From Haladaptatus paucihalophilus DX253 (GTDB lineage: Archaea > Halobacteriota > Halobacteria > Halobacteriales > Haladaptataceae), in the NCBI RefSeq assembly GCF_000376445.1, contig NZ_AQXI01000001.1, forward strand, positions 342,962 to 406,961: DNA of 64,000 nucleotides. Direction: 5' to 3'. Position numbers and translations under genes: made by a program. The notes below the pieces were generated by a model. It was given only the letters and a program-made list of their open reading frames with translations. It ran no database searches and was not told the DNA's origin. Below are positions 26,823-48,356 of the stretch, piece by piece. The first letter of the stretch is position 1, and every line of letters starts with the position of its first letter.

Positions 26823-27413
26823 CTACTCGACCGCTTCGCCGTAATCTCCGCCGAACTTCATGAAGAAGTATCCTATCGAGAGGGTGAACGCGAGCGCCCC
26901 CGACGTCGCAATGCCGAGCGTTTTCGCGTTACCCGGAATCGCCGGTTCCGACGACCCGGACGAGGAGCCGACGGTGATGGAACCGGTCATGCCAGCGCTC
27001 TTGTGCGGGGCACAAACGTACGCGTACTCGCCAGCCGTGCTGAACGTGTGTGAGTAGGTGTGACCGGTGTCGAAAAGCTCGCTTGCACTGCCCGAGCCTT
27101 CCCAGCCGGCACCCTCTGGTTGGCTTTCGGGGACGACGTTGTGACCGTCCGACTCCCAGACGAACTTGACCGTCGTCCCGGGCGTGACGGTCAACTTGTC
27201 CGGGTCGAACACCAAGTCGCCGCCCGGACCGACCTTCACGGTCTTCGTCGCGCCACCGCCGCCGCCGGAACTGCTGTTGTTTTCACCGGAACTGGTCGTC
27301 GTGCCGTCTTCCTGTGCGGCCGCCGTTCCGGCCGCACCCGCCGCGACGACACCCGCAGAACCGAGGAGAAATCCACGTCGAGTGACTGATTCATCCGCTT
27401 CCCCATCTGTCAT
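26823..27413 (-). CDS. Tat-exported, membrane-anchored halocyanin
   Basis: 196 residues. Tat signal with TRRGFLLGSAGVVAAG, a Ser/Gly-rich linker, and a blue-copper domain (about 65-150) with ligands His (GHNVV), Cys, His (YVCAPH) and Met (AGM). A C-terminal helix (TSGALAFTLSIGYFFMKFG) anchors it. Electron carrier at the outer face of the membrane. DNA of the copper domain is about 96% identical to that of the halocyanin at 1-426 over about 245 bases and then diverges abruptly. The stop lies next to the preceding convergent gene. Confidence 0.93.
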   Translation of the reverse strand: MTDGEADESVTRRGFLLGSAGVVAAGAAGTAAAQEDGTTTSSGENNSSSGGGGGATKTVKVGPGGDLVFDPDKLTVTPGTTVKFVWESDGHNVVPESQPEGAGWEGSGSASELFDTGHTYSHTFSTAGEYAYVCAPHKSAGMTGSITVGSSSGSSEPAIPGNAKTLGIATSGALAFTLSIGYFFMKFGGDYGEAVE

Positions 27414-28088
27414 GAGCGGGGGTTTGTACCGATGGGTACTGAATACTTTGGTTTGCCTACGACCTTATCACCACCTTTTACGACGGTCGAACGGTCAGCG
27501 CGGGTCGAATCGACCCGCGCCGACCCGTCTTCTTCACGGCAAAGCCGTGAAGAAACGAGGGAGCAAAGCTCCCTCGCATTCCCTGTAAAAGCTGGACCAA
27601 AAGCACTCCTCCCTCGCTCCACTCGGTCGTCGGCCCGGAAAATCTTCGATTTTCCGGTAAAAACGCTAGAGACTAGCGGCTGTGTCACCAACCGCCCCGG
27701 AATCCTGTCGCGTGCTCATTTCTAGTAGTTGCATCGATAGCCGATTTCTGGCGGTCGTCTCAATTGGTCTATCGCTCTCACCGGTCGCTAGTTCTTTGTG
27801 AGCGACTGGAAGAAGAGGTAGGCCGGATGAATTTTCACGACAAGCGGACTCTCCGTGAGCGAGCGTAGCGAGCGAACGGGCCGAGGAACCCCCGGACGGA
27901 GCGACTGAAAGGAGCGACGGAAGTGGGGTGACGTGGTGCTTTTGGTCCAGCTTTTACAGGGAATGCGAGGGAGCGGAGCACCCTCGTTCCTCCACGGCGA
28001 AGCCGTGAAGAAGCCAGCAAGAGCGATGGCTGTCGCCATCGCTCCTGCTTGTGACCGTCGTAAAAGGTGGTGGCTGAAAGTGGTGGCT
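27414..28088. repeat. 675-base non-coding region: inverted-repeat element built of short-loop hairpins
   Basis: No gene is supported here; the ORFs across it are made of palindromes. Outer arms CACCACCTTTTACGACGGTC (27469-27488) and its exact complement (28053-28072) enclose a second pair of arms of about 78 bases (27529-27606 and 27936-28013, one 31-base stretch perfect). Within the left arm are consecutive perfect hairpins with 3-base loops: 27498-27520, 27530-27554, 27556-27576, and further in 27635-27657. In the right arm are matching imperfect ones plus 28021-28044. The stems differ in sequence from each other. Confidence 0.8.
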
Positions 28089-29138
28089 CTAGAGCGCGTA
28101 ATCGTGCTCGCCGTCCTCGGTTTCGAGGAAGGCGGTGAGGAGATCGATGGTCGCGGATACGTCGTCGCCGTTGGCACTCTCGGTGACGGTGTGGAGGTAG
28201 CGCGTCGGGATGGAGATAGCGCCGACCGGTTTCGCACCGTAGGTGTTCTGGAAACCGGCGGTGTCGGTCCCGCCCGAGGGGAGCACTTCGAGTTGGTACG
28301 GGATGTCGCGCGCCTCGGCCAGCGACCGCATCCGACGGTGGACCTTCGGGGTGGTGACGACGCTGCCGTCCTTGAGTTTGATAGCGGTGCCGTCACCGAG
28401 GCTGGTCACGTAGTCCCGTTCGCGCTTCACGGCGGGGAAATCGTTTGCGACGGTGACGTCGAGGGCGACCGCGAGGTCGGGGTCCACGTCGACGCCGAGT
28501 GCGGTCGCACCGCGAAGGCCGATTTCCTCCTGTACCGTGGCACAGAAGTGGATGGTCGCATCGGGGTCCTCGATTCGCTTTGCAGCCTCCAGCATGGCGA
28601 AGAGACAAACGCGGTCGTCGAGCGCCTTGCCGGAGACGTTCTCGCCGACTTTCCTCGTCGTCTGTTCCATCGTAACGATGTCGCCGACCGACACGCACTC
28701 GGTCGCTTCGTCCGCCGGAAGCCCGAGGTCGACGTAGACGTCCTCGACGTCCTCTTCTTCCTCGTCGCCGTCCAACAGGTGCGGCGGTACCGAGCCGATA
28801 ACGCCGGGTAGGTCACCGCCCTCGGCGTGAACGACGACGCGCTGTGCTCGCAACACGCGGGAATCCCAGCCGCCGAGCGCGTCGAGCGAGACGAAACCGT
28901 CCTCGTTGACGTGCCGGACCATGAATCCGATTTCGTCCATGTGGGCGGCGACGGCGACGTCGTAGTCCTCGGACCCTTCTATCGTCCCGACGACGTTCCC
29001 CATCGCGTCGGTGTGGAGTTCGTCAACTTCGTCCTCCAACTCCCGTCGAACGATGTCTCGGATTCGGTCCTCGTACCCCGCCGCACCGTTCGCCTCCGTC
29101 AGTTCGCACAAAAGTTCGAAATCGAAATCGAATGCCAT
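28089..29138 (-). CDS. M42-family glutamyl aminopeptidase/deblocking peptidase
   Basis: 349 residues from the ATG at 29138 (MAFDFDFELL). Dinuclear-metal peptidase that forms tetrahedral dodecamers trimming peptides. Visible ligands: AAHMDEIGFMV (His, Asp), the catalytic Glu pair in VQEEIGLRGA, the Asp in ALDVTVAND, and a His near the end (TRYLHTVTES). It probably works after the proteasome in the cytosol. The hairpin element lies just behind its stop. Confidence 0.9.
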   Translation of the reverse strand: MAFDFDFELLCELTEANGAAGYEDRIRDIVRRELEDEVDELHTDAMGNVVGTIEGSEDYDVAVAAHMDEIGFMVRHVNEDGFVSLDALGGWDSRVLRAQRVVVHAEGGDLPGVIGSVPPHLLDGDEEEEDVEDVYVDLGLPADEATECVSVGDIVTMEQTTRKVGENVSGKALDDRVCLFAMLEAAKRIEDPDATIHFCATVQEEIGLRGATALGVDVDPDLAVALDVTVANDFPAVKRERDYVTSLGDGTAIKLKDGSVVTTPKVHRRMRSLAEARDIPYQLEVLPSGGTDTAGFQNTYGAKPVGAISIPTRYLHTVTESANGDDVSATIDLLTAFLETEDGEHDYAL

Positions 29139-29250
29139 ACCGAATCTCGTTCCCATCTCCGTATAAACCTCTCTGAAGCGGTGAATAAACTCTCAACTTG
29201 TGTATCGTGGTTTCGGAACGTTTTTGCCGTTTACTCACACAGTGGCTGAC

Positions 29251-39553: not shown

Positions 39554-41169
39554 CCGACCGAACCCCCTCCGAGCGTGCCGACGTCTGTGTCATCGGCGCG
39601 GGTCCGGCGGGCGCGTTGGTCGCTCACACGCTCGCGCGACGCGGCCACGATGTCGTCGTCCTCGAAGCGGGCGAGCGATTCGAATTCGAGGACCGAAAAC
39701 GTCGGATGGAGCGAGCGATTCGCCCCGGCGACGACGACCGCTCGGTCTGGGACATGGGCGGGCCGCGGGACGCCTACACCTCGACCGGCGAGCAGTTCTA
39801 TCCGCTGAACCGCGCCCGCGTCAAGGGGGTCGGCGGCAGCACGCTCCACTGGCAGGGAATGGTCATGCGCCTGCACGAATCCGATTTTGACGCGTGGCCC
39901 ATCAGCTACGACGACCTTCGACCGTACTACGCCCGCGCCGAGTCGCAACTCGGAGTCGCGGGTGCGGACGACAACCCCTTCGCGCCGCCGCGCGAGGAAC
40001 CGTTTCCCCTGCCCGCGTTCCGTCCCTCCCACAGCGATTCCATCTTCGCCGACGCGTGCGAGTCGCTCGGCGTCGCCATGCACTCCGTGCCGAACGCGCG
40101 CAACTCCGAACCGCACGACGGACGAAGCGAGTGCGTCGGCTACGGCACCTGCAAACCGGTCTGTCCCTCCGGCGCGAAGTACGGCGCCGACGTCCACGTG
40201 CGGAAGGCCGAGGAGGAAGGCGCGCGCGTCATCGACCGCGCGGCGGTGCAACGCCTCGAACACGACGACGAGGGAAAGCGCATCGAAGCCGCGGTGTACG
40301 CCGCGCCGGACCACGGGAACGGGGGAACGGGAAGCGTCGAACACCGACAGGAGGCCCGCGAGTTCGTCCTCGCCGGTGGCGGGGTGGAGATACCCCGCCT
40401 GCTTCTCCTCTCGAAATCGAAGACGTATCCCGACGGACTGGCGAACACCAGCGGCGCGGTCGGCCGCTACTTCATGGACCACCTGTACGCGGGGATGGGT
40501 GGACGAATCGACCGGCGCACCCGACAGCACCGCGTCGGCTTCATCACCAGCGAATGTCACCAGTTCTACGAGGACCCCGCGCGGGGAACGAAGGGAATCC
40601 CGGCGGCCGACGACGCCGAGTACGACCGCCTGAAACTCGAATTCTCGAACTACGCGGGACCTACGCCGGTCGGCCTCGCCCTCGACGGGGACGAGTGGGG
40701 CGACGAGCTGCTTTCGACCATCCGCGAGGAGTACGGCAACTCGGTCGGCATGGGGGCGCTCGCCGGTCAGAAACCGCGAAAGGAGAACCGAATCGCGCTC
40801 GATTCCGGAACGACCGACGACCACGGCAACCCGGTTCCTCGGATTCACTGGCGAGTCGACGAGCGGACGAAGGCGACGCTCCGCCGGGCGAACGAGATTC
40901 AGCGGGACATCCTCGACGAACTCGGCGCGGAGGTGACGTGGCACGTCGGCCCCGAAAACACCGGCCCGGCGTTTCACCACATGGGGACGACCCGGATGGG
41001 AACCGACCCGAAAGCGAGCGTGGTGAACGCTCGCCTCCGCACCCACGACCTGCAGAACTGCACCATCGCGTCGAGCAGCGTCTTCGTCACCAGCGGGGCG
41101 ATGAACCCCACTCTCACCATCGCGGCCCTCTCGCTGAAGGCCGCGGACCACGTTCACGAGCGGTTGTGA
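39550..41169 (+). CDS. GMC-family FAD oxidoreductase, large subunit
   Basis: 539 residues. FAD motif CVIGAGPAGALVAHTLARRG at residues 11-30, GMC-type KGVGGSTLHWQGMV, a ferredoxin-like Cys pair GYGTCKPVCPSGAKYGAD, and a C-terminal active-site segment FHHMGTTRMGTDPKAS followed by TSGAMNPTLTIAALSLKAAD. Family members oxidise gluconate, sugars or alcohols and pass electrons to a cytochrome or quinone. It has no signal of its own and pairs with the Tat-borne small subunit. The 21-bp repeats begin at its stop codon. Confidence 0.9.
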   Translation: MTDRTPSERADVCVIGAGPAGALVAHTLARRGHDVVVLEAGERFEFEDRKRRMERAIRPGDDDRSVWDMGGPRDAYTSTGEQFYPLNRARVKGVGGSTLHWQGMVMRLHESDFDAWPISYDDLRPYYARAESQLGVAGADDNPFAPPREEPFPLPAFRPSHSDSIFADACESLGVAMHSVPNARNSEPHDGRSECVGYGTCKPVCPSGAKYGADVHVRKAEEEGARVIDRAAVQRLEHDDEGKRIEAAVYAAPDHGNGGTGSVEHRQEAREFVLAGGGVEIPRLLLLSKSKTYPDGLANTSGAVGRYFMDHLYAGMGGRIDRRTRQHRVGFITSECHQFYEDPARGTKGIPAADDAEYDRLKLEFSNYAGPTPVGLALDGDEWGDELLSTIREEYGNSVGMGALAGQKPRKENRIALDSGTTDDHGNPVPRIHWRVDERTKATLRRANEIQRDILDELGAEVTWHVGPENTGPAFHHMGTTRMGTDPKASVVNARLRTHDLQNCTIASSSVFVTSGAMNPTLTIAALSLKAADHVHERL

Positions 41170-41290
41170 GCCGTCCACGGGGGGCCGTGAACCGTCCACG
41201 GGGGGCCGTGAACCGTCCACGGGGGGCCGTGAACCGTCCACGGGGGGCCGTGAACCGTCCACGGGGGGCTATGAACTTCCCACAGGGGCC
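41167..41290 (+). repeat. 21-bp tandem repeat at the 3' end of the GMC gene
   Basis: Five near-perfect copies of a 21-base unit of the type CCGTCCACGGGGGGCCGTGA, then degenerate ones (CTTCCCACAGGGGCCGTGAG and beyond). Each unit can form a small hairpin CACGG/CCGTG. The first copy starts in the GMC stop codon, and the array ends before the convergent DUF4349 gene. A role in termination or as a variable-number repeat is inferred. Confidence 0.85.
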
Positions 41291-48011: not shown

Positions 48012-48182
48012 CGTGAGTGACTCACGTATGGATGAACAAACGACCGACTCGCTATTTGTTATGCGCCGTCTGAAAGCGATGCTAGAATCCCAGTTCGCGT
48101 TTGAGCGAATTCGCTATCCGCTATCGACTATTTATTATGATTGGAACCTTCGCGGTGCTCATCGTGTGGTTCGCGGTAAAAT

Positions 48183-48356
48183 GGGGTCGGAGGGATTTGA
48201 ACCCCCGATCGACTGATATCTCCGGTGCGCCTCGGAACTCCAGAGGGTCGTCAACGCGGGCGATGATCAGTCACCCGCTCGGTATATCAGCTGGAGTTTC
48301 GTCCCGGGCGCGTAGCCTCTGGAGTCAGTCGCCATCCCTGGCTTGGCCACGACCCC
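48183..48356 (-). tRNA. tRNA-Trp (anticodon CCA) with 101-base intron
   Basis: Minus strand. 5' exon 48356-48319 ends CTCCAG, 3' exon 48217-48183 begins ATCAGT. Joined, they give stem ACTGA/TCAGT with loop CTCCAGA, so anticodon CCA and an intron at position 37/38. Acceptor GGGGTCG/CGACCCC. The mature length is 73 without CCA. Exact splice points are inferred from the folding of the anticodon arm. Confidence 0.93.
48218..48318 (-). ncRNA. Intron of tRNA-Trp acting as box C/D guide RNA
   Basis: Within the intron CTGATAT, complementary to ATATCAG of the 3' exon, is followed by A then CCGA (variant D' box). CTCTGGAGT, complementary to ACTCCAGAG across the 5' exon-intron border, is followed by T then CCGA (D box). 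Counting five bases upstream of each box gives U39 and C34. Possible C and C' boxes are GGGACGA and TTGACGA. This fits the known haloarchaeal pre-tRNA-Trp guide for 2'-O-methylation. Confidence 0.8.

Follow-up and report, generated by a model that had tools for sequence, protein, structure and literature searches.

A dispersed hairpin unit behind haloarchaeal stop codons, present as a convergent pair in Haladaptatus paucihalophilus DX253

Here we report that a palindrome-rich stretch of 604 bases in the genome of Haladaptatus paucihalophilus DX253 consists of two convergent (tail-to-tail) copies of a dispersed haloarchaeal hairpin unit and is not one element. The unit is a long imperfect palindrome that mostly begins at, or a few bases past, a stop codon, with massive covariation in its helices P1 and P2. 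The key fact, that throughout the class the units stand directly after stop codons, was invisible to the original prediction, which had been made from the letters of the window (the whole stretch of DNA analysed, 64 kb).

From 5' to 3', the unit comprises the 5' strand of P1 (NNACCTTTTNN), a loop (GACGGTC or TGCGGTC), the hairpin P2, the motif TCCCT, the 3' strand of P1 (NNAAAAGNTNN) and a tail, A(C/T)CAAAAGC. The outer helix P1 includes TTTT/AAAA, and the internal loop GACGGTC / TCCCT is conserved and non-complementary. P2 has about 12–16 bp and a loop of 3–7 nt, and its sequence differs from copy to copy. Some units, including both units of the window, carry two additional hairpins (P3 and P4), placed between P2 and TCCCT; P1 then encloses three hairpins. 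The features of the locus are as follows.

26823–27413, minus strand: gene of a halocyanin-like copper protein (Pfam PF00127, E = 1.9e-19); its promoter region has the left unit immediately upstream
27470–27606, plus strand: left unit, three-hairpin form with P1 around P2, P3 and P4 (R1 match, 47.2 bits)
27471–27481, plus strand: left unit, P1 5' strand CCACCTTTTAC, which includes TTTT (sequence; P1 covariation)
27482–27488, plus strand: left unit, 5' side of the internal loop, GACGGTC, conserved
27493–27525, plus strand: left unit, P2, the variable inner hairpin, which contains the palindrome 27498–27520
27530–27554, plus strand: left unit, P3, extra hairpin of the three-hairpin form (stem 11, loop AAA)
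27556–27576, plus strand: left unit, P4, extra hairpin of the three-hairpin form (stem 9, loop AAA)
27580–27584, plus strand: left unit, 3' side of the internal loop, TCCCT, conserved
27585–27595, plus strand: left unit, P1 3' strand GTAAAAGCTGG
27596–27606, plus strand: left unit, 3' tail ACCAAAAGCAC, conserved
27635–27657, no strand assigned: separate recurrent palindrome between the two units, CCGGAAAATC-TTC-GATTTTCCGG (stem 10)
27936–28071, minus strand: right unit, three-hairpin form (R1 match, 57.0 bits; folding z-score -7.54)
28016–28049, minus strand: right unit, P2, which contains the stem 28021–28044
28060–28070, minus strand: right unit, P1 5' strand
28089–29156, minus strand: M42 peptidase gene (Pfam PF05343, E = 2.6e-87); its stop is followed downstream by the right unit

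The original prediction had described a single inverted-repeat element of 604 bases, built from short-loop palindromes. Its building blocks were confirmed. The palindromes with 3-base loops are exact at 27498–27520 (stem 10, loop AAT), 27530–27554, 27556–27576 and 27635–27657, and a fifth perfect palindrome of the element lies at 28021–28044 (stem 10, loop TGTC). The left block recurs inverted (27529–27606 / 27936–28013, with 88% complementarity across 78 nt); the outer 20-base arms (27469–27488 / 28053–28072) are perfect. The hairpins also exceed random expectation, as five of the six perfect stems in the window with at least 9 bp and loops of 3–4 nt fall within the 604 bases. Under an order-2 Markov model, 20 simulated versions of the 64 kb contained 0.90 such stems on average (maximum 3) vs. 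six observed, and 300 simulated versions of the 604 bases averaged 0.013 (maximum 1) vs. five observed. That the stems are not copies of one another is true of each side taken alone but fails across sides, where the second and third hairpins recur opposite and at other loci; unlike those of REP elements, and as had been noted, the stems form no single conserved sequence. The single element itself had to be abandoned, since its ends are independent convergent units. Elsewhere, the two ends of a locus often differ in type (L050, L052, L082, L089) and are thus not inverted repeats of one transposon, and many loci contain one unit only. A single 604-bp transposon or MITE was rejected on these grounds; the matching terminal inverted repeats of a MITE are lacking.

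This second recurrent palindrome, GGAAAATCnnnGATTTTCC (27635–27657 in the window), is present in 14 of the 30 loci fetched from the source genome, where its 3-base loop is variable and where it is often found a few dozen bases past a unit. Between convergent units, short degenerate repeats around GGTGACACAACCGCCAG / CTGGCGGTTGTGTCACC were observed at irregular spacing, both in the window (27658–27900) and at loci L052, L053 and L080.

A self-search of the source genome (G000, 4.32 Mb) with the 604 bases yielded 117 partial matches, and all those with E ≤0.01 were located on contig C1 (2.95 Mb), the main chromosome (68% of the genome). The genome has approximately 26 distinct units, and 26 of 26 among those listed are on C1. 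The mobile class of hairpins proposed earlier is borne out as a dispersed class of the source genome; a mobile origin is a rival reading, and a rather unlikely one. Covariance models were built from 8 units (R1) and 93 units (R2). R1 matched all nine genomes of the genus, and R2 matched all 28 genomes of the family (E ≤1e-5) and, across the class, 107 of 292 genomes belonging to 37 of the 77 genera (E ≤1e-6), the class-wide search having been run with stricter filters by which weak matches were lost. The best distant matches retain the loop, the tail and the stop codon. The units had no match above the gathering score in Rfam 15 and hence no named family there, which accords with the original prediction, and a known RNA was rejected for the same reason. 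The family is undescribed in the open-licence PubMed Central literature searched. Plasmids and phages gave no blastn match to the units, which speaks weakly against an origin from either because the reach of blastn is limited for distant units.

The alignments made with the models (A5, 93 units; A6, 65 distinct units) are fitted to these models and hence biased towards them. In A5, 95.5% of the cells were paired, and both sides had changed in 707 cells, distributed over 26 of 30 pairs, vs. 206 ± 12 double-changed cells in shuffled and 38–68 in slid controls. In A6, 95.6% were paired, with 476 double-changed cells (shuffles 130) in 24 of 30 pairs; slid controls of the two alignments had 38–51% paired cells and at most 82 double changes. 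The tallies of P1 and P2 were instead made from fixed anchors and omit rows without located anchors (18 of 104 in the Haladaptatus set, 4 of 65 in the distant set); for the distant units, 4 duplicate rows of 69 had been dropped. Position 2 of P1 is never mismatched, neither in the 86 Haladaptatus units (C-G 48, G-C 21, A-T 17) nor in the 61 distant units (G-C 34, C-G 18, A-T 9), and one pair within the conserved loop also covaries (G-C 54, C-G 5, U-A 4 of 65). Among the 86 units there are 83 distinct 5' arms, and the innermost 10 bases of P2 share 3.6 on average. The folding z-scores of four units range from -7.5 to -10; the left unit of the window has an RNA MFE of -74.7 kcal/mol (z-score -10.0).

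Sense frames, which were called mechanically (at least 60 open codons), end at most 60 nt from 161 of 183 units in 54 genomes, counts that still include the four duplicate rows; 22 of the 183 have no such frame. In 118 of these 161 units, the start lies between -3 and +5 nt relative to the stop codon. In Haladaptatus, a start at -10 to +5 nt was found for 52 of 103 units with an open sense frame vs. 76 of 1,907 random positions with a frame, and in distant genomes for 39 of 61 units. The TTTT of the unit begins 3–10 nt after the stop codon in 121 of the 161 units, vs. 1 of 49 genes of the window. By its codon composition, the strand upstream was sense in 132, antisense in 16 and unclear in 13 of the 161 cases. 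The downstream neighbour was codirectional in 71, convergent in 64 and unclear in 26 of them; lacking a matched baseline, these figures favoured no reading. Host genes that were compared with Pfam encode an AAA ATPase (which, from its sequence, we take to be of the CDC48 type), PhoU, aIF1A, a GTPase (presumably EngB-like), an AsnC-type regulator, TFS, ribosomal protein L10e and aconitase; TFS, the CDC48-type protein, aIF1A, L10e and PhoU are housekeeping genes. Orthologous host genes in different families carry units, among them TFS, PstB and aIF1A. In the source genome, a unit was also observed one base behind a tRNA gene on the same strand (C1:714057–714142 and 714144–714215).

The reading that we tentatively favour, and which is plausible without being quite probable, is that the unit would be a boundary or terminator palindrome of gene ends that works as DNA and is copied between loci. 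The T-run of P1 would end transcription at the 3' boundary of the gene, and the palindrome would act as DNA, in the form of a hairpin or cruciform, possibly bound via its conserved loop and tail, and might limit read-through or absorb transcription-driven supercoils. Its complementarity would be maintained by a strand-symmetric process, i.e., selection on the cruciform or arm-to-arm correction. A role at gene ends is favoured by the orthologous hosts and by the T-run of P1, which occupies the place where TFS genes without a unit have a T-rich run. Several points argue against such a boundary: the left unit of the window has no sense gene in front of it and sits upstream of the halocyanin gene, 22 of the 183 units have no frame, TFS genes may do without the unit, one position beside P1 shows G·U/U·G exchange, and a 99% identical copy at an unlinked locus would fit a mobile element as well. 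A further reading, that the unit is a class-wide haloarchaeal DNA element of gene ends with a dedicated protein that recognises the conserved loop and tail, appears somewhat unlikely.

If this further reading is true, a palindrome fused to a T-run, whose arms are re-drawn and copied between loci while their complementarity is kept, would represent a 3' boundary system of archaea for which no counterpart is known in bacteria or eukaryotes. Genes are commonly followed by palindromes, but in this family the arms are free in sequence, and what is constrained class-wide is their complementarity, the loop, the tail and the spacing from the stop codon. The family thus provides a handle on what marks the 3' ends of haloarchaeal genes besides the T-run, and on whether selection or arm-to-arm correction can maintain palindromic DNA as DNA. 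With the covariance model, copies can be found in any haloarchaeal genome, and natural presence and absence at the same gene end offer ready-made comparisons.

The copying of unit sequences between loci leaves some probability to a mobile origin. The units might be mobile palindromes free of transposase, behaving like REP, PATE or SMR elements and inserting precisely behind stop codons or into T-tract terminators, where they do the least damage, and they would be moved in trans or by an enzyme that was not recognised; we consider this somewhat unlikely. It would explain why the right unit of the window is 99% identical over 135 bp to a copy at an aconitase gene 1.8 Mb away on the contig (C1:2206675–2206809), with the identity spanning exactly the limits of the unit. 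It would also account for P2 types that recur at unrelated loci of one genome and often differ at the same gene end in different species, and for unit sequences that are swapped or lost at orthologous loci. Among the nine Haladaptatus genomes, the end of the TFS gene carries a unit of one of three types in five (type 1 in G005 and G006, type 2 in G007, and a perfect or nearly perfect palindrome without the conserved loop in G003 and G002) and half a unit in G008; the three others have no unit, and the element is thus dispensable there, with a T-rich run at the same place (TTTTT in G000, TTTT in G001, TTTCT in G004). The comparison of the focal locus among close strains that had been suggested earlier showed that the presence of units in the gap between the M42 and halocyanin genes varies by genome. 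The unit on the halocyanin side is present in G000, G002, G003, G004, G005 and G006, and that on the M42 side only in G000 and G004, with none in G003, G005 and G006; G001 and G007 have no unit within the stretch read.

Against mobility stand the units retained at orthologous gene ends across families and the lack of a plasmid or phage match within the limited reach of blastn noted above. No target duplication was obvious at the TFS and M42 ends, where sister strains provided no clean pair of filled and empty sites. A Y1/RAYT transposase (PF01797) had no match in G000 and any match in only five of the nine genomes of the genus, being absent from the other four, and R2 had no match at E ≤1 within 15 TnpB/Y1 loci. 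For the last two reasons, an IS605/PATE or RAYT end was also rejected. In G008, the gap between the M42 and halocyanin genes (L216) contains a chimera in which the 5' halves of two unit types are joined at a palindrome common to both, which looks like the outcome of a recombination of two P2 hairpins with loss of the middle; since such recombination explains the chimera, it was not counted as template switching.

Integron attC sites, which have R and L boxes and a cognate integrase, resemble the unit in their variable apical hairpin behind stop codons. The family fully matches none of the PATEs, SMRs, REPs or T-tract terminators, each of which fails or lacks at least one of the features tested. 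The nearest relatives in print are the PATEs and SMRs (PMC3119063), REP-type repeats (PMC3733652) and T-tract terminators (PMC7237163). The PATEs (palindrome-associated transposable elements) of Haloquadratum resemble the ends of IS605-type transposons and are, like the units, haloarchaeal, non-coding, palindromic, dispersed and heterogeneous in sequence, and no target duplication is seen for them; the units differ in that they adjoin stop codons, end in the complementary strands of P1, are found repeatedly at orthologous housekeeping genes and were absent from the TnpB/Y1 loci tested (PMC3119063). The same paper describes the small mobile repeats (SMRs) of Haloquadratum, which share with the units a length of approximately 80–140 bp, complementary ends unrelated to a known transposon and the lack of a transposase; their copies usually exceed 95% identity, and PATE/IS605 palindromes serve as insertion sites of SMR-A, whereas the units diverge freely in P2, sit behind genes and do not occur in the 15 TnpB/Y1 loci tested (PMC3119063). 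REP, BIME and REPIN elements with RAYT are likewise extragenic intergenic palindromes in modular clusters, sometimes in inverted pairs, and CGTC-tagged REPs also lack a transposase (PMC3733652). The stems of the units, in contrast, are not conserved, and their aligned ends have no GTAG; the string CGTC is found in the complement of the type 1 loop. The T-tract terminators of Haloferax resemble the units in a T-run just behind the stop codon, a feature found here as the TTTT at 3–10 nt, but the unit embeds it in a long covarying palindrome with a conserved loop and tail (PMC7237163). Inverted repeats of E. coli are also concentrated just behind stop codons and are mostly parts of intrinsic terminators; unlike for the units, no shared family of loops or tails is described for them in the available part of that study (PMC6060812).

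Alternatively, the unit might be an RNA element of 3' untranslated regions, whose folded transcript would be bound by protein, protect the 3' end or be processed to a small RNA. The placement of units in sense past stop codons, a loop and tail conserved within helices that covary, the folding z-scores and an RNA-like sign, i.e., the position next to P1 that alternates between G·U (61) and U·G (19) in 93 units, are consistent with such an element, which we nevertheless regard as unlikely. Most of the unit lies beyond the TTTT, and transcripts may therefore stop short of it; no Rfam family was matched. Moreover, a structured RNA should tolerate G·U above A·C, and a palindrome maintained as DNA should be indifferent. 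In P2, 1,211 of 1,247 pairs of the 86 Haladaptatus units were Watson-Crick (13 G·T, 19 A·C), and 12 of 702 pairs of the 61 distant units were not (5 G·T, 4 A·C); stems overall were 97–98% Watson-Crick, and the pooled P2 mismatches were 18 G·T vs. 23 A·C. P1 without position 4 had 7 G·T and 6 A·C. In contrast, among 360 pairs from the acceptor and T stems of 30 tRNA genes (of 47 in the source genome), G·U occurred 16 times and A·C never (Fisher's test, units vs. tRNA, P = 3.2e-5 for the Haladaptatus units and P = 4.6e-5 for the pooled units). At 18:23 vs. 16:0, G·T is no commoner than A·C in P2, which points to upkeep at the level of DNA. This strand symmetry favours a unit maintained as DNA, in line with the favoured gene-end palindrome.

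Strand-symmetric and nearly perfect stems, compensated changes in orthologous pairs such as L065/L118, and an internal loop at L324 in which one side has been wholly exchanged for the complement of the other would also be expected of a mutational by-product without further function, in which template switching within hairpins rewrites quasi-palindromes to perfect ones, but this is improbable because the non-complementary loop and a C.C mismatch at P1 position 4 (60 of 86 units) persist, fully corrected units were limited to 2 pattern matches in 292 genomes, one of them clear (L324), and the position at stop codons and the conserved tail are left unexplained. The repeated template switching invoked in the original prediction is thus compatible with the strand-symmetric perfection of the stems, but the conserved mismatches of the internal loop have survived it, and corrected units are rare. 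At L324 (approximately 1500–1570; G014, genus g2), the normal tail is kept beside the internal loop turned perfect palindrome.

Two further features were observed elsewhere in the window. A tRNA match at 48182–48356 extends across 175 nt, which suggests an intron, and a repeated stretch around CCGTCCACGGGGGGCCGTGAA is located just behind a gene at approximately 41169–41210.
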